Origin: Fulvivirga sp. M361
GTDB lineage: Bacteria; Bacteroidota; Bacteroidia; Cytophagales; Cyclobacteriaceae
Length of the DNA stretch: 64,000 nt
Reading direction: 5' to 3'
Assembly: GCF_007097395.1 (NCBI RefSeq)
Contig: NZ_VKDC01000005.1
Coordinates: forward strand, 248,001 to 312,000
This document shows positions 1,445-61,885 of the stretch, piece by piece (position 1 is the first letter of the stretch; every line of letters starts with the position of its first letter). Position numbers and translations under genes: made by a program. The notes beneath the pieces were generated by a model. It searched no databases. It was given only the letters and a program-made list of their open reading frames with translations, and was not told the DNA's origin.

Positions 1445-2688
1445 TGGAAAGCTATTTGTTGAAATCAAGTATCGCACTTATCATCCTTTACATTTTATAT
1501 CAATGGATACTAAAATATGGGTCCAATCATCAGCTCAATAGATTTATTGGTCTTTCATGCCTGATGTTTTCCGCTGGATTTTTGTTTGTTCCCTATGACC
1601 TTTTCCTGCCGGCAGTGGAATATTCCACAGCAATTTATACTGTGGTTAAAAACTCGGCTGATCTCCAGGAAGGGTTCACAAAGGTGGTTTCGGGAGAAAT
1701 TTTCAGTATTCATTTGATCATCTATTTCATGGGTGTAGGTCTGTTTTCTGTGCGTTCCCTTGTGGGACTGGTCACACTGGTCCGCCTTTACATCGGTGCT
1801 GAGAAGTCCTTTCGATGGGGATTTAAGGTAGTTAAGATAAACAGGCCAATAGCTCCATTTACTTTTTTTAATAGGTTGTTTATCGGCCAGCATAGCTTTG
1901 AAGATGAAGACATAAAAGCACTCATCATACACGAACAATATCATCGGGATCAATATCATTCTATTGACGCACTGATTACGGAAGTTTTCTCAATAATCTA
2001 TTGGTTTAACCCAGCGGTATGGCTCTTTAGAAGAGATATAAGGGCGGAACATGAGTACATGGCAGATCAACAGGTGCTAAGAAAGGGTTATGACCAGCTG
2101 AACTATCAGCACCTTTTATTTCAGGCACAAACGGGCGTCTCTTTATCTCTGGGTAATTATTTAAGTAATACAACAAGTTTAAAAAAGCGATTCAACATGA
2201 TGAACAAAAGAAAATTCAATACCAAAAGAAGCTACCTCCATGTAGCAGGTTTTTCACTTCTTATGATTGCTCTGATGGCTTTAAGCGCTTTTTCAGAACA
2301 GTACATCGGTCAAATACCTGATAGGTTACCTGTCTATGAGGAAGGAGAAAATGCCATGTATGACAAATTAGGTAAAAGCATGGTATACTCTGCCAGCGCC
2401 AGGCTACAAAAACGTTCTGGCTTAATATATGTGTCTTTCAAGATCAACGAGAATGGAGAAATGGAAGATATAAGAGCAGAGCAAAGAGGAGATAACTTGT
2501 TAAAAGAAATCGTTATAGTAGGTTATTCTAAGGTAGAATCAATGGCAAAACCTACCAGTCTCAATGAAGACGATAAGAAAGAAGTCATTCGCGCGGTTAA
2601 AACCCCCGGTAAATTCATCCCGGCAGAAAAAGAAGGCAAGCGTGTCAGCTGTGTATTGAACTTACCTATCCGGTTTAAATTAGGTTAA
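1441..2688 (+). CDS. BlaR1/MecR1-type M56 membrane peptidase (anti-repressor), TonB-like C-terminus
   Basis: A 415-residue membrane metalloprotease of family M56. Hydrophobic segments sit near residues 8-25, 35-58, 90-115 and 265-285. The zinc motif HEQYH is at 164-168 and the third ligand lies in EHEYMAD around 203-209. The region after the last membrane segment (about 330-415) is not a penicillin-binding domain; the pattern GLIYVSFKINENGEMEDI...RAVKTPGKFIP resembles a TonB C-terminal domain, which is frequent in Bacteroidota BlaR1 homologues. It includes the string EIVIVGY, reminiscent of the SusC plug motif. Expected role: sense a signal in the envelope and cleave the upstream BlaI-type repressor. 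The inducer is unknown; the lack of a PBP sensor argues against beta-lactam sensing. Confidence 0.88.
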   Translation: MMESYLLKSSIALIILYILYQWILKYGSNHQLNRFIGLSCLMFSAGFLFVPYDLFLPAVEYSTAIYTVVKNSADLQEGFTKVVSGEIFSIHLIIYFMGVGLFSVRSLVGLVTLVRLYIGAEKSFRWGFKVVKINRPIAPFTFFNRLFIGQHSFEDEDIKALIIHEQYHRDQYHSIDALITEVFSIIYWFNPAVWLFRRDIRAEHEYMADQQVLRKGYDQLNYQHLLFQAQTGVSLSLGNYLSNTTSLKKRFNMMNKRKFNTKRSYLHVAGFSLLMIALMALSAFSEQYIGQIPDRLPVYEEGENAMYDKLGKSMVYSASARLQKRSGLIYVSFKINENGEMEDIRAEQRGDNLLKEIVIVGYSKVESMAKPTSLNEDDKKEVIRAVKTPGKFIPAEKEGKRVSCVLNLPIRFKLG

Positions 2689-2811
2689 AACAACCTGTTA
2701 CACACAGAACAGGAGTAGGTATATGAAAAGAATTGCAACCCCATAGAAAGTTATGTGTTTTAAATAGTGTTGATCCAACTCCATCAATACCTGGCTTAAC
2801 GACATGTTGGA

Positions 2812-3738
2812 ATGAAAGAATTAAAACATTTCTCCACCCTCGCCGCATATTGCAAAGGGATCAATATCTCTCCTCCCAGGTGGGAGTTATTTGATATAAG
2901 AAGCTTTGAGGAAAATATGAAAACGGTGCATCCTAAGATGCTACCCTTTAAACATGAATTTTATGCCATTGCCGTAAAAATAGAAGGAAGCGGTATTGTG
3001 TCTGTCGGGAATTATAAAACCAAAGAAGTAGAGGCAACCGTTTTCTTTAACTCTCCCTACCAAATATTGCATTGGGACATTGCACCGGACTGGAAAGGTT
3101 TTTATGTCATCTTTTCGGAAGAATTCTATGCCAAAAAACAAAAACGGCTTACCGAAGAATTTTCTTACCTGTTAGTGGACAACACTATACCCCTTGAACT
3201 AAGCCGGGAGCAGGCCAATGCCTTTTTATCTACATTTCAGGACATCTATAGTGAATTCCATGCTGACCTGCACGGAAACAAGGAGATCATTCAAAGCTAC
3301 CTGGACATACTATTGCGGAAGGTATCCAGGCTTTTTAGTGATAAGGCAAAAACACACGCTCTTACTTACGGACAAAGAGATAACGATCTCAACCTCGTAA
3401 GCCGTTTCAAAGCGCTGATAGAAACCAGTTTTTACCCTGACCAGGACCTTCAGAACGCATCACCCCATCAGGTACAGTTTTATGCCAATGTATTGCACAT
3501 TCATCCCAATCACTTGAATGCAGTCGTTAAACGGATTACAAGCCATTCCGCCTCAGAACTTATTCAAAAGCATGTGATGGCGCTGGCCAAATCAAAGCTC
3601 AGAAACTCCGATAAATCCGTAAAAGAAATTGCTTACGAATTGCATTATGCTTATCCGAATCACTTTACTCATTTTTTCAAAAAACAAGTGGGTATAACCC
3701 CTGTGGCTTTCCGGGAACAGCATCATCGAACAAAATAA
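2812..3738 (+). CDS. AraC family transcriptional regulator
   Basis: A 308-residue AraC/XylS-type activator. Residues ~1-190 form a cupin-like ligand or dimerization region typical of Bacteroidota AraC proteins. Residues ~205-305 carry two helix-turn-helix motifs: HPNHLNAVVKR is the first recognition helix region, and VKEIAYELHYAYPNHFTHFFKKQVGITPVAFRE is the conserved second HTH with its signature ending. The gene sits 380 bp upstream of an aldo/keto reductase in the same direction. Bacteroidota commonly pair such regulators with adjacent oxidoreductases, so it probably controls the reductase and the small lipoprotein between them. No effector can be read from the sequence. Confidence 0.92.
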   Translation: MKELKHFSTLAAYCKGINISPPRWELFDIRSFEENMKTVHPKMLPFKHEFYAIAVKIEGSGIVSVGNYKTKEVEATVFFNSPYQILHWDIAPDWKGFYVIFSEEFYAKKQKRLTEEFSYLLVDNTIPLELSREQANAFLSTFQDIYSEFHADLHGNKEIIQSYLDILLRKVSRLFSDKAKTHALTYGQRDNDLNLVSRFKALIETSFYPDQDLQNASPHQVQFYANVLHIHPNHLNAVVKRITSHSASELIQKHVMALAKSKLRNSDKSVKEIAYELHYAYPNHFTHFFKKQVGITPVAFREQHHRTK

Positions 3739-10313: not shown

Positions 10314-11486
10314 ATGGATACAGAATACAAAAAATCAATATCGGCAAGAGTAATTGCACTCGCTACTTCTATATTCCTTCCGGGATTATTTGGATGGTTA
10401 TCTTATTCTACACTAAGTTCAGAACCACTTGAAATAATATCGCTGGTTTCTCTCTTAGTCTTTATAATCACAGTTGTTATATCATTTTATTCAATCATTG
10501 ATGCATTCTGGTCCAAATTAATTATTGAAAATGACCGGATAATGATCATTAGTTTTTGGGATAAAAGAGAGCTGTTTTTTGAGAACGTGGATGGAATGAA
10601 ATATGAGGAAGGTAAAATTCATTTTTTCCCTAAAAACCAATCCACTAAAAAAATAAAGATAAGCGATAGTTACAGAAATAAAGAAGAGTGGTTTGAACTA
10701 CTGGCAAACAAAACAAGGGATTTAGATAAAGAAATATATCAAAAGGAAAAAGAAGAGTTATTTAACGATCAGAATTACGGGAAAAATCTTGATCAGAGAG
10801 CGGAGAAGATCAATAGAACCAAACAAATCACTAAATTTTTAAACTATTGCTCATGGGGAGCTATCATTTGGTTATTATTTCACCCTGACCCGTATACGTT
10901 GGCCACTGCGGTTAACATCATCCTGCCTACCATCGGGCTTTTTCTAGTAGTGGCTAATAAGAGCCTTATTAAAATCTATTATGATAAAAACAGTCCCTAT
11001 CCTTCGCTATCAACAACGTTGTCAATGCCACCAATGGCATTAGTAATCAGGGCTATAATCGATTTTAACATTATCGACTACCAAAATGCCTGGAGGTATG
11101 CACTAATACTGTCTCCACTTTTATTTTTAATGATTATTATTGGAACCAGGAATCAATTCAGGGCAAAAAATAAAATGGAGGAATTGGGCGGGTATTTGAT
11201 CACTGCACTCGCTCTGGGGTTCTTTACTTTTTACACTTCCATCATGATCAACTGTACATACGATGACTCCTGGCCAGAGCAATACGCGGCAATAGTAGAC
11301 TATAAAGAAATTGAAGAAGACAATGATTCGCCTACAACATATCTTCTGACTATTAGCCCTTGGGGCACAATTGAAGAACAAATGGAAGTGAGTGTTTCAG
11401 AAAGGTTATATAATGAGGTGGCAGTAGGAGACGAGGTTTTTGTTAATCTACATCAAGGACTCCTGAATATACCCTGGTTTTTGTGA
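10314..11486 (+). CDS. multi-pass membrane protein of unknown function
   Basis: A 390-residue protein with two membrane helices near the N-terminus (about 13-33 and 42-65), a cytosolic stretch that looks like a bacterial PH-like domain (LIIENDRIMIISFWDKRELFFENVDGMKYEEGKIHFFP), a charged helical linker (~120-170), then five or six more helices (about 175-320) and a short beta-rich tail. I do not recognise a family. An overlapping frame opening at 10211 has no signal or domain and is taken as non-coding. A hairpin at 11540-11559 follows the stop. Confidence 0.75.
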   Translation: MDTEYKKSISARVIALATSIFLPGLFGWLSYSTLSSEPLEIISLVSLLVFIITVVISFYSIIDAFWSKLIIENDRIMIISFWDKRELFFENVDGMKYEEGKIHFFPKNQSTKKIKISDSYRNKEEWFELLANKTRDLDKEIYQKEKEELFNDQNYGKNLDQRAEKINRTKQITKFLNYCSWGAIIWLLFHPDPYTLATAVNIILPTIGLFLVVANKSLIKIYYDKNSPYPSLSTTLSMPPMALVIRAIIDFNIIDYQNAWRYALILSPLLFLMIIIGTRNQFRAKNKMEELGGYLITALALGFFTFYTSIMINCTYDDSWPEQYAAIVDYKEIEEDNDSPTTYLLTISPWGTIEEQMEVSVSERLYNEVAVGDEVFVNLHQGLLNIPWFL

Positions 11487-11539
11487 CTTCAAAGTAGACC
11501 TGTTTGAACTTTATTTATCTTGTTTTTCTATTAGTATTA

Positions 11540-11559
11540 TAGCCCTTTTACAAGGGCTA
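11540..11559 (+). terminator. probable terminator hairpin
   Basis: An 8-bp perfect stem (TAGCCCTT with AAGGGCTA) and a 4-nt loop, 54 bp after the stop of the membrane protein gene. It is followed by a weak T-rich stretch, so termination is plausible but may be partial. Confidence 0.55.
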
Positions 11560-56512: not shown

Positions 56513-56764
56513 TTTTTGATATTGCTCTGTCGATGTGATGCGGCTTTCCAATGTGCCATACGATGGTAGCCGGTAAGACGTAGTAACCTACTTCTGGGAG
56601 GTTATGCATTTTATCCATTGTTGTTATTACAAATCCTATTCCTAAACCGATAGTATAACGCTACCGCTAGATGCTTGCCAGGGCGGGTATTTTACGAATG
56701 AGTCAGTAAGAAAATTCTATTCAACAGTTCAGTTATATTTACACCGGACCAACTTAAGCACATT

Positions 56765-57214
56765 ATGAAGCCCAGAATGAAAAGTTATGGAAAAGCCAAA
56801 AACGAAATACTACATCACCTGGCTAAAGAAACAACAGCGGTAAAAGTGCTTGCAAAAAATATGGGGATGAAAGCCAGCCTGATCGAATATTTGATAGGTG
56901 AGCTGTCCAACTACGGTTTAGTGTATTCAACAGGCCACTCAGAAAATATTAGCGCATCAATCACTCCAAAGGGCAGAGTATTCATCGACAACAATGGATT
57001 CCCGGAAACTCTGACAGCAGTTTGTGTAGAATACGTTAGGAGTAATATTGCAACGATCTTATCAATAGTCGCCATAGCAATTAGTGCATTAGCTTTGTAC
57101 AATGGGTGGAGCAGAGAGAAAACAAAATCCCGATGGTCAATCATGCCACCAACACCTCCCCCCTCGGAATCATCCTTCCCTGATAGCCTGGAAACCGACC
57201 AATATTCTCCTTAA
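56765..57214 (+). CDS. winged-helix membrane protein, unknown
   Basis: A 149-residue protein. The N-terminal ~80 residues look like a winged helix (EILHHLAKETTAVKVLAKNMGMKASLIEYLIGELSNYGLVYSTGH), then one membrane helix (NIATILSIVAIAISALALYNGW, about 98-118) and a Pro/Ser-rich tail. The HTH plus membrane anchor would place a DNA-binding or scaffold domain at the membrane. No family recognised; fold inferred by eye. Confidence 0.65.
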   Translation: MKPRMKSYGKAKNEILHHLAKETTAVKVLAKNMGMKASLIEYLIGELSNYGLVYSTGHSENISASITPKGRVFIDNNGFPETLTAVCVEYVRSNIATILSIVAIAISALALYNGWSREKTKSRWSIMPPTPPPSESSFPDSLETDQYSP

Positions 57215-57389
57215 CGATCTTTTTATCCTTATATATGCTTTTTTATTGTCATTGCCCGATCAAAAGGGAAGCAGGTCCAGACTCAATCTCCGTTTCCCTG
57301 ATTTGTAGTCATTCGCGCCATCCTTCAACTCATTACCAAACAGCCTATTATAAATCAAAAAGCTTAACAGTCATTATTGGGCACAAAAA

Positions 57390-57424
57390 AAGGCATTAGT
57401 TATATCAATGATAACTAATGCCTT
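57390..57424 (-). terminator. strong terminator hairpin on the minus strand
   Basis: A 14-bp perfect stem (AAGGCATTAGTTAT with its complement) and 7-nt loop; on the minus strand it is followed by a run of seven T. It sits directly next to the 15-bp copy of the tRNA-Thr 3' end, mirroring the real tRNA-terminator arrangement at 59031-59148. Confidence 0.85.
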
Positions 57425-57428
57425 AGAA

Positions 57429-57443
57429 TGAGCCCCCAGTCGG
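57429..57443 (-). repeat. 15-bp copy of the tRNA-Thr 3' end (candidate att site)
   Basis: TGAGCCCCCAGTCGG is identical to 59073-59087, the last bases of the tRNA-Thr gene. It is the kind of short tRNA 3'-end duplication left by tyrosine-recombinase integration. The bases to its right do not make a tRNA T-arm, so no tRNA exists here. Confidence 0.55.
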
Positions 57444-57573
57444 CTCAGGATAACCCTATTTTAAAGCAATCAAGACCTACCTGTAAAGTTTTCCTGTTGA
57501 GTTCAGCCAACTATCTCCCCCTTTGCCTATCTCCTATTCCCTACTTACCTTTAATTAAAACATCACTTGAAAT

Positions 57574-57858
57574 GTGTCGATGATGAAATATCCACAGGAC
57601 TTATTGCGGAAAATAAAACCAAAGCATGTCTATAATCTAGCGATAGCTATGTTAGTGGCATTGTTGCTCCATGCAATTTTCTATAAGCCCCGGGTAAGAC
57701 AATACTATTCTGAAGAAAAAGGCCAAGACGGCCAACCACCCATTAATGATAATCACCCTCCCTCTTGTTGTGAAGAAGGGGGTAAACCACTAGGTGACAA
57801 ACTAAAAAAAACCGGAGGAACAGCACAAGGAGACAGCCACCCCATAATGCCGGAATGA
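57574..57858 (+). CDS. small single-pass membrane protein, unknown
   Basis: A 94-residue protein with a basic N-terminus (YPQDLLRKIKPKHVYN), one membrane helix (LAIAMLVALLLHAIFY, about 22-37) and a polar tail with PPINDNHPPSCCEEGGKP. No family known. Codon use looks like that of neighbours and the start is plausible, so I keep it as a likely gene. It lies inside the suspected decayed element. Confidence 0.55.
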   Translation: MSMMKYPQDLLRKIKPKHVYNLAIAMLVALLLHAIFYKPRVRQYYSEEKGQDGQPPINDNHPPSCCEEGGKPLGDKLKKTGGTAQGDSHPIMPE

Positions 57859-58160
57859 AAAAATCTCAACAAAGTTAAAAGGAGTTTGTTGTCATTGATA
57901 TTACAGGTATGGTGGTCTATTCAATGTTAGGTGACATGGGGTAGGCCGCTTTTTATTAGTATTGAAGAATGAAAAAATACCTCAACGACCATAACCCCAT
58001 CTTTAGAGAAAGAGTAGAAGGAGAAAGGTTAAACCGGTGAAATTGAAAATTGACCTAGGTAATTAACCGGGTATTAATTATCTTTCATAAGCAACCATCG
58101 TTTCCCGCCCTGTCTGGTTGCAGTACTCTATTATTTACCAACTATTTAACCCCTATAGTC
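57859..58160. other. intergenic stretch
   Basis: About 300 bases with no gene, tRNA or clear repeat. Presumably holds the promoter of the EF-hand protein. Confidence 0.5.
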
Positions 58161-58451
58161 ATGAAAAATTTGTTTGTTTTCGTTCTAATTATTTCTTCGT
58201 TTTTTGCATTTGGTTTTGCAGAAATAAGCCCTGATGTTGAAAAATCAAACTCATTCATTTCTCAAGAATCGACACAGTGCCCATGCCCGTTTTGTGACTT
58301 TGATGGAGATGGATTTATGAATGTAGAAGAATTTAGAATTTGTTATCCAGGAGTGGGCCCGGCAATATATGTCATAATTGATGTAAACGGTGACGGTCTT
58401 ATCGATATGGACGAGCATGCCGCCGCATGTGCTGCTGGTATTTTATGTTAA
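58161..58451 (+). CDS. secreted EF-hand protein
   Basis: A 96-residue protein with a Sec signal peptide (MKNLFVFVLIISSFFAFGFAE) and two EF-hand calcium loops: DFDGDGFMNVEE (about 47-58) and DVNGDGLIDMDE (about 74-85), each with ligands at positions 1, 3, 5, 7, 9 and 12. Cysteines flank the first loop (CPCPFC) and appear at the end (C...ILC), suggesting disulfides in the periplasm. Likely binds Ca2+. Family and role unknown. Confidence 0.85.
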   Translation: MKNLFVFVLIISSFFAFGFAEISPDVEKSNSFISQESTQCPCPFCDFDGDGFMNVEEFRICYPGVGPAIYVIIDVNGDGLIDMDEHAAACAAGILC

Positions 58452-58520
58452 TCTTACACTAAGATAAGGTTGTTAAGGCTTTACCATAGCTTTAACAACT
58501 TTTTTCATCACATATTGAAC

Positions 58521-58751
58521 CTTCGGAACAACAAAAAAACTCCCCGGAAGGGGTATAAGGTCCCCCGGGAAGAATTTTATTTCACCGGAAGGGGTCATAG
58601 ACGCCCCGGACGGAATATTATTTGGCACGGAAAGGATAAAAAGTTCCGCGGACAGCTCATCATGCTCCACGAAAGGGGCATGATGTTCCGCAAAATGACC
58701 AAAAACCTCCGCGGAAGGGGTATAAGGCACCTCGGAAAGAATTTTATTTCA
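58521..58751. repeat. imperfect ~21-bp tandem repeat array
   Basis: About eleven units of 18-24 bp (mostly 21-22), each starting CCxCGGAA or close to it. Units such as 58542-58562 and 58709-58729 (both GGAAGGGGTATAAGG) and 58563-58584 and 58730-58751 (both AAGAATTTTATTTCA) pair up, so there is a higher-order two-unit pattern. There are no constant spacers, so it is not CRISPR. Both strands stay open as heptapeptide-like repeats in one frame (plus-strand 58470-58811, minus-strand 58473-58730), which is expected of a 21-bp period and not proof of coding. Confidence 0.8.
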
Positions 58752-58944
58752 TCATATTCCAAGTCGGGATCATTCTCAAACCTAGCATGTATACGCCTCG
58801 CTCCTGGTTAAAGGAACTACTTGACCACTCCAATTCCAGATCAAAAAGTTTTTTATTCTTCTTGGTTAGCAGCACCTGTAGGTAGATTTTAGAAGATCCG
58901 TTTTTCTTCTTATAGGAGCTGATATAGATTTTTCTCGATTTCAT
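58744..58944 (-). pseudogene. probable tyrosine-recombinase N-terminal fragment
   Basis: A 66-codon minus-strand frame reads MKSRKIYISSYKKKNGSSKI and YLQVLLTKKNKKLFDLELEW. The K-x-G-x-x-x-I-Y-L-x-V pattern with a following basic strand resembles the arm-type DNA-binding domain at the N-terminus of Bacteroidota phage and transposon integrases (usually ~400 residues). It stops exactly at the junction with the 21-bp repeat array, so the catalytic domain is missing. Its place beside the 3' end of a tRNA gene supports the call, which remains tentative. Confidence 0.45.
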
Positions 58945-59030
58945 ATTCGCATAATTTTTTGTGAGGCTATTGTGAAACGCCCCCTCTCAATTTGCTATTG
59001 TGAAACATTTGCGAAACACTGTAAACGCAA

Positions 59031-59063
59031 AAAACCCTGTATACTGCGAGTATACAGGGTTTT
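59031..59063 (-). terminator. tRNA-Thr terminator
   Basis: A 15-bp perfect stem (AAAACCCTGTATACT and its complement) with a 3-nt loop and T-run on the minus strand, 12 bases after the tRNA 3' end. Confidence 0.9.
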
Positions 59064-59074
59064 TCTTAAATCTG

Positions 59075-59148
59075 AGCCCCCAGTCGGATTCGAACCAACG
59101 ACCCACGCATTACAAGTGCGTTGCTCTGGCCAACTGAGCTATGGAGGC
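59075..59148 (-). tRNA. tRNA-Thr(UGU)
   Basis: The minus strand folds as a tRNA: acceptor GCCTCCA with TGGGGGC (one G-T pair), D-arm GCTC...GAGC, anticodon stem ACGCA/TGCGT with loop CTTGTAA (anticodon TGT), and T-arm GTTGG-TTCGAAT-CCGAC. CCA is not encoded; TCA follows the acceptor. It is upstream of a matching terminator. Confidence 0.97.
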
Positions 59149-59227
59149 TTCTCTTATGCCTTTCTTTCAAAAGCGTGTGCAAAAATAGTGTTACGGATAA
59201 TAAATACAAATATCTTAAAGCAAATTT

Positions 59228-61822
59228 TTAAGATACTGTCCTTAGTAATCTCAATTGCTGTTTTAACTCTTGTAATTGGCTACTGGCTTTGTCGATTTTT
59301 GCCTGGAATTCATCTTTTAATTTATCCGCGTTCTTCGACTGCGTGAAAAACTCCATGTTATTCTTCCAGACAGATATATCATTTTCAATTTGTCCTATCT
59401 GTTTACGCAAAGACTGTTCTTTTCTATGGATCTTTTGATCAGCATTTGGCCCGCTGATAATCTTATTGATCTGATTTTCTATGCGTAGATTTTGTTTTTC
59501 TTCACCAGACAGCTCTTCCTGACTACTTATAAACCTATCTACCGCCTCTGAATACCTGTTTTTGATGTCACCAATATTTTTCCTTGGCACAAAACCTATG
59601 TCGTTAAAAGCTTCCTGTAAATCACGAAACTTCTCAATATCCATTGATTTGGCAATGGCCATGGCCGTGATCTCATTACAGATATCTATTTTCTTATTAT
59701 AGTTTGCTTCGAACTCTTTTTCTACCTCACCCTGGTTGCTTCTTCGGTTATTGAAGAAATGATCACAGGCGGTTTTAAATTCCTGGTAGACGGATTCACG
59801 GTATTTCTCAGGTACCGGTCCGATCTCTTTCCAAAGTCGCTGCAGTTTTTTGAACTCATCGGCTGTTTTATTCCAGTCATGATCATCTTTAAGCGCGTCA
59901 GCCTGTTTTACCAGATCTCGTTTTTTAGCAAGGTTGCCTTCACGTTGGGCATCCAATTTTTTAAAAAACTCACCTTTGTTATTGAAGAAGGCCTTGAAAG
60001 CGCCCCAAAACTTTCTGTTGATCTCTTTGGCTTTTGCTCGTGGCAATCCACCGGTAGTTTCCCACTTTTTTTGTAAGGCCAACAGCTCTTTGGTCTTGCT
60101 ATTCCATTCTTTAATGCGATCAGAATCATAAGACACAAATGCCTGGATCTCATCTGCCAGTTGCTCTTTTACCTTTAAGTTCTCTTCCAGCTCACCTTTT
60201 AACTTCTCTACGAACTCTTTTCGGTGGTCGTAAACGGCATCGGAAGCCGCTTTAAAACGCTGCCATAATGGTTCCTGCTCTTCCTTAGGGACAGGACCTA
60301 TATGCTTGAATTCGTGATGTAATTCATTCAGCTCCGCGATGGCTTCTTTTAAGTTTTCCACATCAGCCAGCTTTTCAGCGCGTTCACACAGCTCCAGCTT
60401 CGACTCAAGGTTTTTCCTGCGGTCAAGTTCCTTCAGCTCAAAATAAATACTCCTGTTATCATAAAATCGATCTACCAGGGCGTTATAATTCGCCCAGAGC
60501 ATCTTCACATGAGCACCCGGTATGGGGCCAACATTTTTCCATTCGTTTTGGATCTCTTTAAAATCCTCGAAATTAATGTTGGTCTCATCCGCATCCACAA
60601 ACTCTCTCAGCCTTTCAAGAATAGCCTGTTTTTTAATCAGATTAGCATCTTTTTGCTGTTCCTGCTCATGGGAATATTTACTTCTCCGATCACGGATCAG
60701 CCTGAAATTAGCGTCAAATCGTGTGGAAAGTTCATCATATTTGTATTCAAAATCCTCTTCTACTCCACCTTCTGCTTTGAAACGTTCTAATGCCTCTACA
60801 CGATCTTTACGTTTGAATTCGTCAAAAAATGGCTTGAGTTTCTTGGCAATTTTATCAGAACGTACAATATTATCATCCTTGGCCAGCGTCTTGATCAAAT
60901 CTACCAATTGCTCTTTGGTATAAGTACTGTAATCAATTTCTTCCGGTTCCTCCTCGTGATGGTGCTCTTTTTCAGTCAGGTCCGTTTCCGAATTCAACTC
61001 TTTTTTACCTTCTGCCGTCGTGGCCCCGGCTGCATCCTCCTGTGCCTTTGGAGTATCGCCGGCGGCGACATCACTTTCTACAACGGGCGGATCAGTCTTT
61101 TGGTCATCAGCAAGAGGTGAATCTAAAGTAGTCTCTGAGACTGCAATGTCTTTGGTACTGTCTTCCGCCTCGTTGGTCACTGGTTCCGGAATGTCCTGCG
61201 GGTCGTTATCCGCTGACTGCTCCGTTTCAGGTAATTCTTCAGTAGTGGTGGCAGTAACAGGTTCAGCCACATGCTCGTTTATTTCTGTCGAAACAGGATC
61301 TTCGGATACCTCTTCTTTTTGGGCCTCATCAGAAGGGTGCCCCTCTGCGGAGGATGTTTCTGCAGCTGTGTCAGAATTTGATGGTTGTGTCTCTTCCTCT
61401 TGCTCCTGAAGTGTTGTCTCCCCTGAATGGACTTCTGGTTCTACATCTACAGCATTGTCCTCCTCGTCCAGGGTTTCCTCCGGTTCACTAACGGCCGTAG
61501 TAGTAGATTCCGTAGTTGGCTCAGCTTCCGATGAAAGTGGACTGTCTGTTACCTCTTCCGGACCGGAAGGTTCTTGCTCTATGGAAGATGTTTCCGTAAT
61601 TACAGTGGGATCTGAAGGTTGCGTTTCCAATGGCTCTGCAAGTATTTCTTCTGACCGGGTGTCATCCTGATCCGATACTACCGTCTGATCTTGCTCTTTC
61701 AGGGCTTCCTTAGCTTCATCAGCCTTTGAAACCTCTTGATTTTCTTCCTGTGTGTTTTCCAGTTTATCACCTTTGGTATCGTCAGATGAAGCGCCAGCAT
61801 CCTTGTGTTCGTCTTCTCGCAT
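59228..61822 (-). CDS. DUF349 domain protein with long acidic N-terminus
   Basis: An 864-residue protein. The first ~290 residues are low-complexity, rich in Glu, Asp, Ser and Thr (short forms of EEPTTESTT-like sequence), predicted disordered. The remainder holds five or six DUF349 repeats (each ~75 residues, coiled-coil-like, with W-K-x-x-G-P-x-P motifs such as EWKNVGPIPGAHVKMLW, HIGPVPKEEQEPLWQRF, LWKEIGPVPEKYRESVY), followed by a helical end. The frame continues upstream to 61879, but the ATG at 61822 begins the acidic region. DUF349 proteins bind RNA or ribosomes in some reports; role here not known. Last gene of the miaE-yqgE unit. Confidence 0.92.
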   Translation of the reverse strand: MREDEHKDAGASSDDTKGDKLENTQEENQEVSKADEAKEALKEQDQTVVSDQDDTRSEEILAEPLETQPSDPTVITETSSIEQEPSGPEEVTDSPLSSEAEPTTESTTTAVSEPEETLDEEDNAVDVEPEVHSGETTLQEQEEETQPSNSDTAAETSSAEGHPSDEAQKEEVSEDPVSTEINEHVAEPVTATTTEELPETEQSADNDPQDIPEPVTNEAEDSTKDIAVSETTLDSPLADDQKTDPPVVESDVAAGDTPKAQEDAAGATTAEGKKELNSETDLTEKEHHHEEEPEEIDYSTYTKEQLVDLIKTLAKDDNIVRSDKIAKKLKPFFDEFKRKDRVEALERFKAEGGVEEDFEYKYDELSTRFDANFRLIRDRRSKYSHEQEQQKDANLIKKQAILERLREFVDADETNINFEDFKEIQNEWKNVGPIPGAHVKMLWANYNALVDRFYDNRSIYFELKELDRRKNLESKLELCERAEKLADVENLKEAIAELNELHHEFKHIGPVPKEEQEPLWQRFKAASDAVYDHRKEFVEKLKGELEENLKVKEQLADEIQAFVSYDSDRIKEWNSKTKELLALQKKWETTGGLPRAKAKEINRKFWGAFKAFFNNKGEFFKKLDAQREGNLAKKRDLVKQADALKDDHDWNKTADEFKKLQRLWKEIGPVPEKYRESVYQEFKTACDHFFNNRRSNQGEVEKEFEANYNKKIDICNEITAMAIAKSMDIEKFRDLQEAFNDIGFVPRKNIGDIKNRYSEAVDRFISSQEELSGEEKQNLRIENQINKIISGPNADQKIHRKEQSLRKQIGQIENDISVWKNNMEFFTQSKNADKLKDEFQAKIDKASSQLQELKQQLRLLRTVS

Positions 61823-61885
61823 GTCCTTCGCATTAAGCGTACTACGTATTAGCAACCTGCAATACGTAAAAATATACAAATTCGT

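Follow-up and report, generated by a model that had tools for sequence, protein, structure and literature searches.

We conclude, with a probability of about 0.92, that the window, a stretch of 64,000 nucleotides of Fulvivirga sp. M361 DNA, carries a 1.64-kb scar of a phage-like element (a temperate phage or something closely related) that integrated at a tRNA-Thr gene and was later mostly lost. The tRNA-Thr gene itself is intact, whereas no complete integrase gene is left in the element. Going by its relatives, the former element had most likely been a prophage some 30-45 kb in size. By sequence comparison, the remnant of its integrase gene and the stretch that runs from there to the tRNA gene are homologous to an intact element in a congener (G070, Fulvivirga sp. 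MAG PL25a_bin.63), with equal spacing, a core of similar length and the same terminator layout.

The complete target gene, tRNA-Thr (TGT), lies at 59074-59148 on the minus strand and is the sole tRNA gene that ARAGORN finds in the window. At its 3' end is the attachment core (59073-59087, minus strand; TGAGCCCCCAGTCGG on the plus strand); of its 15 bases, 14 belong to the 3' end of the gene and one lies just downstream. The same 15-mer recurs exactly and in the same orientation at 57429-57443, 1644 bp away from start to start; we read this distal copy as the displaced 3' end of the gene. The crossover would have lain in the 3' T-stem and acceptor stem of tRNA-Thr, and the displaced fragment lies on the side, and in the orientation, expected for an integrative element in a tRNA gene. 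Across the 8,129,137 bases of the genome (148 contigs) the 15-mer occurs twice, both times at this locus, against a chance expectation of about 0.015 copies (2 x 8.13e6 / 4^15), which bears out the view of the earlier note that such a match is unlikely to arise by chance. The G+C content between the two copies (0.384) is so close to that of the window (0.407) that it says nothing about origin.

In the sense of the tRNA, each copy precedes a strong hairpin followed by a U run, so that the distal copy has a terminator of its own, as the earlier note had claimed. The proximal terminator (59030-59064, minus strand; z -6.9 for the fold of 59020-59073) is an inverted repeat that aligns with the one between the integrase gene and tRNA-Thr in G070 and in a second congener, G071. 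The inverted repeat behind the distal copy (57387-57424, minus strand; z -6.0 for the fold of 57370-57443) is probably the original terminator of tRNA-Thr.

The integrase remnant beside the tRNA gene was recognised solely through the locus of a congener, the profile libraries having missed it. A DNA search of 15 Fulvivirga genomes, that of the window included, gave a 78% identical counterpart of 58821-59150 at the tRNA-Thr gene of G070 (contig C115, JANQLQ010000172.1), where the homologous stretch leads into an intact tyrosine recombinase of 397 aa. In a tblastn search, residues 1-53 of this recombinase matched 58944-58786 with 68% identity (E 6.95e-18; the database was small, 32 sequences). 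The 53 aligned residues of the window belong to a 66-aa ORF at 58744-58944 whose last 13 residues are out of frame: past residue 53 it is another frame of the window that continues the likeness, reading RFENDPDLEYD where the G070 integrase has RYENDPDAEDY. The homology stops at 58751/58752, the start of a repeat array. From the sequence, 58752-58944 (minus strand) is best described as a frameshifted, truncated integrase gene of about 64 codons, the frameshift following residue 53 and the cut coming after it. Both lesions precede the core-binding and catalytic domains, and the element is thus without a functional integrase able to excise it. The bases of the window and G070 agree at 117 of 159 positions over the aligned integrase codons and at 103 of 129 between the integrase start and the core, and in both genomes the integrase starts 130 bp from the tRNA gene. 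The truncated integrase N-terminus seen by the earlier note, and with it a decayed integrative element at tRNA-Thr, are supported by this intact homologue at the same tRNA gene.

An accidental 15-mer next to an unrelated short ORF might have been entertained on the ground that no profile library names the 66-aa fragment. Neither Pfam, PHROGs nor NCBIfam gave an integrase match to it, and it is absent from the five matches to PF17293 (Arm-DNA-bind_5) that the genome of the window holds at E <= 10. Searched against its own genome, the fragment found itself and one match at E 4.2, and no relative could be confirmed in the genome_contigs collection. The check with profile models proposed by the earlier note thus failed on the fragment, whereas the intact G070 homologue passes PF00589 (Phage_integrase, 6.9e-18) and PF13102 (SAM_5, 1.9e-11), its match to PF17293 (0.013; 16.4 bits) being below the cut-off of 22.6. 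Against coincidence stand the homology to that integrase at an equal distance from the tRNA gene, a 15-mer confined to two places in 8.13 Mb and a terminator behind each copy; we give this reading almost no weight, and as regards the integrase the first two of these findings refute it.

The G070 element is recognisably a prophage. The pattern GAGCCCCCNGNCGG occurs three times in that genome: at the tRNA gene (C115:19804), at C213:15045, which falls within a 936-aa ORF and was discounted as a chance match, and at C260:64572. The last has the layout of an element end: behind a terminator come 16 bp that match the tRNA 3' end exactly, and the DNA beyond them contains a TTGTGAAGC site. The distal copy of the window shares this layout. 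With 19.8 kb on C115 up to the tRNA gene and 24.5 kb from C260:64572 to the end of that contig, the element would span about 44 kb across two unjoined contigs. Among ten of its proteins compared with PHROGs were a tape measure protein (6.4e-57), a head maturation protease (1.5e-44), a portal protein (weak, 2.6e-4) and transcriptional regulators; three others hit nothing but families of unknown function, and three had no match. The ORFs scanned between the attachment copies of the window include no phage structural gene. A likeness between the distal inner flanks of the two elements was dropped as not significant, since its score was reached by 76 of 2000 shuffles and by 19 of 560 segments of the window. 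The G070 integrase found only its own contig in the genome_contigs collection and nothing in viral_contigs. Some 2 kb inward from the far end of this prophage, an AbiH-like protein (PADLOC, 2.7e-6) is encoded at positions 2635-3654 of locus L092 (G070:C260:64000-82000).

Relatives of the G070 integrase elsewhere in the family allowed us to gauge how long the end copies of such elements are. The integrase has 22 matching places in 20 of 295 family genomes (E <= 1e-20), and a tRNA gene flanks it in 19 of these loci, none being found by ARAGORN in the other three (flank of up to 1.5 kb). The flanking tRNAs are those for Thr, Gln, Arg, Leu, Glu, Cys, Ser and Pro, with some Gly next to Leu. Seven of the relatives' genomes were examined over 40-60 kb on the element side, and four of them carry a copy of the tRNA 3' end 32-42 kb away (G088, 19 bp; G251, 19 bp; G248, 21 bp; G117, 13 bp). 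The remaining three, all at tRNA-Gln (G185, G270 and G245), showed no distal copy over that distance, only matches of 11-12 nt that we take to be chance. Because four relatives carry copies of 13-21 bp, 15 bp is ordinary for this group of integrases and need not be what is left of an eroded longer repeat.

A motif search also revealed putative binding sites of the integrase. Between its remnant and the core, at 58959-59017 (plus strand), lie four sites of the type TTGTGAARC, arranged as two pairs with 11-bp spacing, which are probably surviving arm sites. The motif is not enriched overall, the window holding 34 occurrences with at most one mismatch against a chance mean of 38, and these four are among the 34. 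Intact relatives have paired sites near both ends, most clearly by eye in G088, G251 and G117; the search for paired arm sites gave no shared 8-mer in G248, and no arm site is recognisable at the distal end of the window.

On the other side of the tRNA gene, the chromosomal neighbour is conserved. A DUF349-repeat protein (59228-61879, minus strand; DUF349 1e-89) has a match in 15 of 15 Fulvivirga genomes, and tRNA-Thr was seen beside its gene in 13 of the 15; the stretch from G060 reaches the contig end without one, and the match in G062 starts at a contig end. The left flank is not conserved: of the ORFs of at least 90 aa to the left of the tRNA gene in the window, only five have scattered matches in 31 relatives' loci, none in a shared place. 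G065 and G072 have an LmbE-like gene close to tRNA-Thr; in the genome of the window this gene sits on a different contig. This flank is non-syntenic with the congeners and has therefore been rearranged, so that an empty site cannot be shown by synteny. Within it, a stretch of about 58 bp (56626-56683) has more than ten relatives (77-81%) elsewhere in the genome, some clustered on contig C138, and 56765-57214 encodes a 149-aa winged-helix protein with a probable membrane segment, weakly like the HTH part of Csa3/CasR/CARF regulators (1.1e-5; 1.5e-6).

Comparison of the tRNA-Thr site with related genomes, which the earlier note had proposed, produced occupied sites but no clean empty one. Besides G070, the site is occupied in G069 (L061, G069:C40:1-8600) by a 6.1-kb insert that has a 44-bp end copy and, at the far end, an integrase-like ORF (weak match, E 6.6e-4); this is an element of another kind. 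G071 has, like the window, a remnant: a decayed integrase start at tRNA-Thr (residues 10-41, E 3.7e-4), with no second copy of the tRNA end within about 15 kb at up to 3 mismatches in 16. In the other congeners no repeat was seen. The findings that would have refuted the earlier note did not arise: the congeners vary strongly at this place, one of them has a homologous intact integrase there, and the 15-mer is not a widespread repeat. Altogether, the site states point to a repeatedly used insertion site in Fulvivirga.

Some related genomes raise the question of whether the distal copy and its terminator might be all that is left of a duplicate tRNA-Thr gene, the element of the integrase having lain between the copies or ended elsewhere. 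G066 and G067 have a second full tRNA-Thr gene with a like terminator, at distances of 7.9 and 4.0 kb, and G047 and G045 have tandem tRNA-Thr pairs. In G007 (L033, G007:C2:62000-75500; 11159-11542) four partial tRNA-Thr 3' ends, spaced by about 121 bp and each behind terminator-like sequence, lie next to the full gene, and in G028 there is one partial 3' end 281 bp away. We nevertheless hold a duplication to be unlikely: the copy in the window stops at 15 bp, near the tRNA position at which the far end of the G070 element stops (16 bp), four other integrase relatives have end copies of the same 13-21 bp size, and ARAGORN picks up nothing of the remainder of such a gene.

What lies between the copies had been regarded in the earlier note as residual cargo, a tandem repeat array included. 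This does not hold for the array (58531-58751, no strand assigned), a hairpin-rich dispersed repeat at the break of the integrase gene: it has relatives on four other contigs of the same genome (C24, C35, C46 and C56) and therefore does not count as cargo here. Inverted CAGGACGCCACA ends flank the C24 and C35 copies, whereas the C46 copy has one such end and the copy in the window none; weaker relatives occur in G068 and G070. The array may have played some role in the deletion. Two small plus-strand genes are possible cargo. At 58161-58451 is encoded a 96-aa protein with EF-hand loops (EF-hand_1, 6.6e-8), found among 15 Fulvivirga genomes in that of the window only, and at 57574-57858 a 94-aa ORF, probably a small membrane protein, which matched no family in profile searches and for which 14 congeners offered no credible relative. 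The G070 element likewise holds no credible counterpart of either gene. A 17-aa likeness (E 0.007) between the 94-aa ORF and G070 DNA near the distal end of that element falls in a 57-aa ORF with an N/P/D-rich tail and was not counted. Both genes may be phage cargo or later arrivals.

The scar most likely arose as follows. The tyrosine recombinase of a temperate phage, or of a close relative, would have crossed over within the last ~15 bp of tRNA-Thr; the incoming DNA would have restored the tRNA 3' end, bringing a new terminator and the adjacent integrase gene, and the original 3' fragment with its terminator would have been displaced to the far end of the element. These steps follow the layout shared with G070 and the established behaviour of tRNA-targeting integrases. 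Nearly the whole element would later have been lost, as its size and broken integrase suggest, the integrase gene acquiring a frameshift and keeping about 64 codons up to the break, where a dispersed repeat now lies, and 1.64 kb would have remained between the two attachment copies. That this particular element was a phage, its former size and the order of events are inferred.

It is conceivable, if very improbable, that the scar is a tiny cis-mobilisable cassette, still excised or recombined in trans by a related phage integrase through the attachment copies and arm sites, with the EF-hand and membrane proteins as passengers and tRNA-Thr as a reused docking point in Fulvivirga.

A phage scar at tRNA-Thr is well supported but ordinary, a further case of a well-known type whose underlying principle has long been known. 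It illustrates that even an extremely decayed element can be recognised if a relative has an intact homologue at that tRNA gene, and that short end copies (13-21 bp) are what this group of integrases leaves. The remnant escapes family profiles and falls below the size limit of the Islander method for tDNA islands (PMC4383910), which discards candidates that are below 2 kb or lack an integrase frame. Among the papers listed by our literature search on Fulvivirga and prophage integrases none names Fulvivirga, but the search was swayed by common words and is a weak guide to what is in print.

As in the tDNA islands of the Islander database (PMC4383910), a tRNA gene and a displaced 3' fragment bracket the element in the window, with the tyrosine integrase beside the tRNA gene and the orientation as expected; unlike those islands, the element measures 1.64 kb and has no integrase frame. 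The Islander paper places tRNA crossover sites in the anticodon loop, the T loop or the T-acceptor junction (PMC4383910), and the crossover in the window falls in the latter two. Prophage 02 of Pseudomonas fluorescens Pf-5 (PMC2647930) is another remnant that retains a frameshifted integrase next to a tRNA gene, but it spans 8.4 kb, has a 60-bp attachment site and resides in an unrelated host. The G070 integrase shares its recombinase family with those of the phages Mea-Yong924-1 of Microcystis (31.9% identity), Ingeline of Cellulophaga (26.6%) and laban6-1 of Flavobacterium (26.1%), over 92-96%; such phage integrases are distant from it, with 63 of 63 matching records below 60% identity. Although the G070 prophage differs from the scar in having an intact integrase and phage genes, spread over about 44 kb of two contigs that are not joined, it has in common with the scar the same tRNA-Thr gene, a homologous integrase at equal distance, a homologous stretch from integrase to tRNA and a short end copy behind a terminator.
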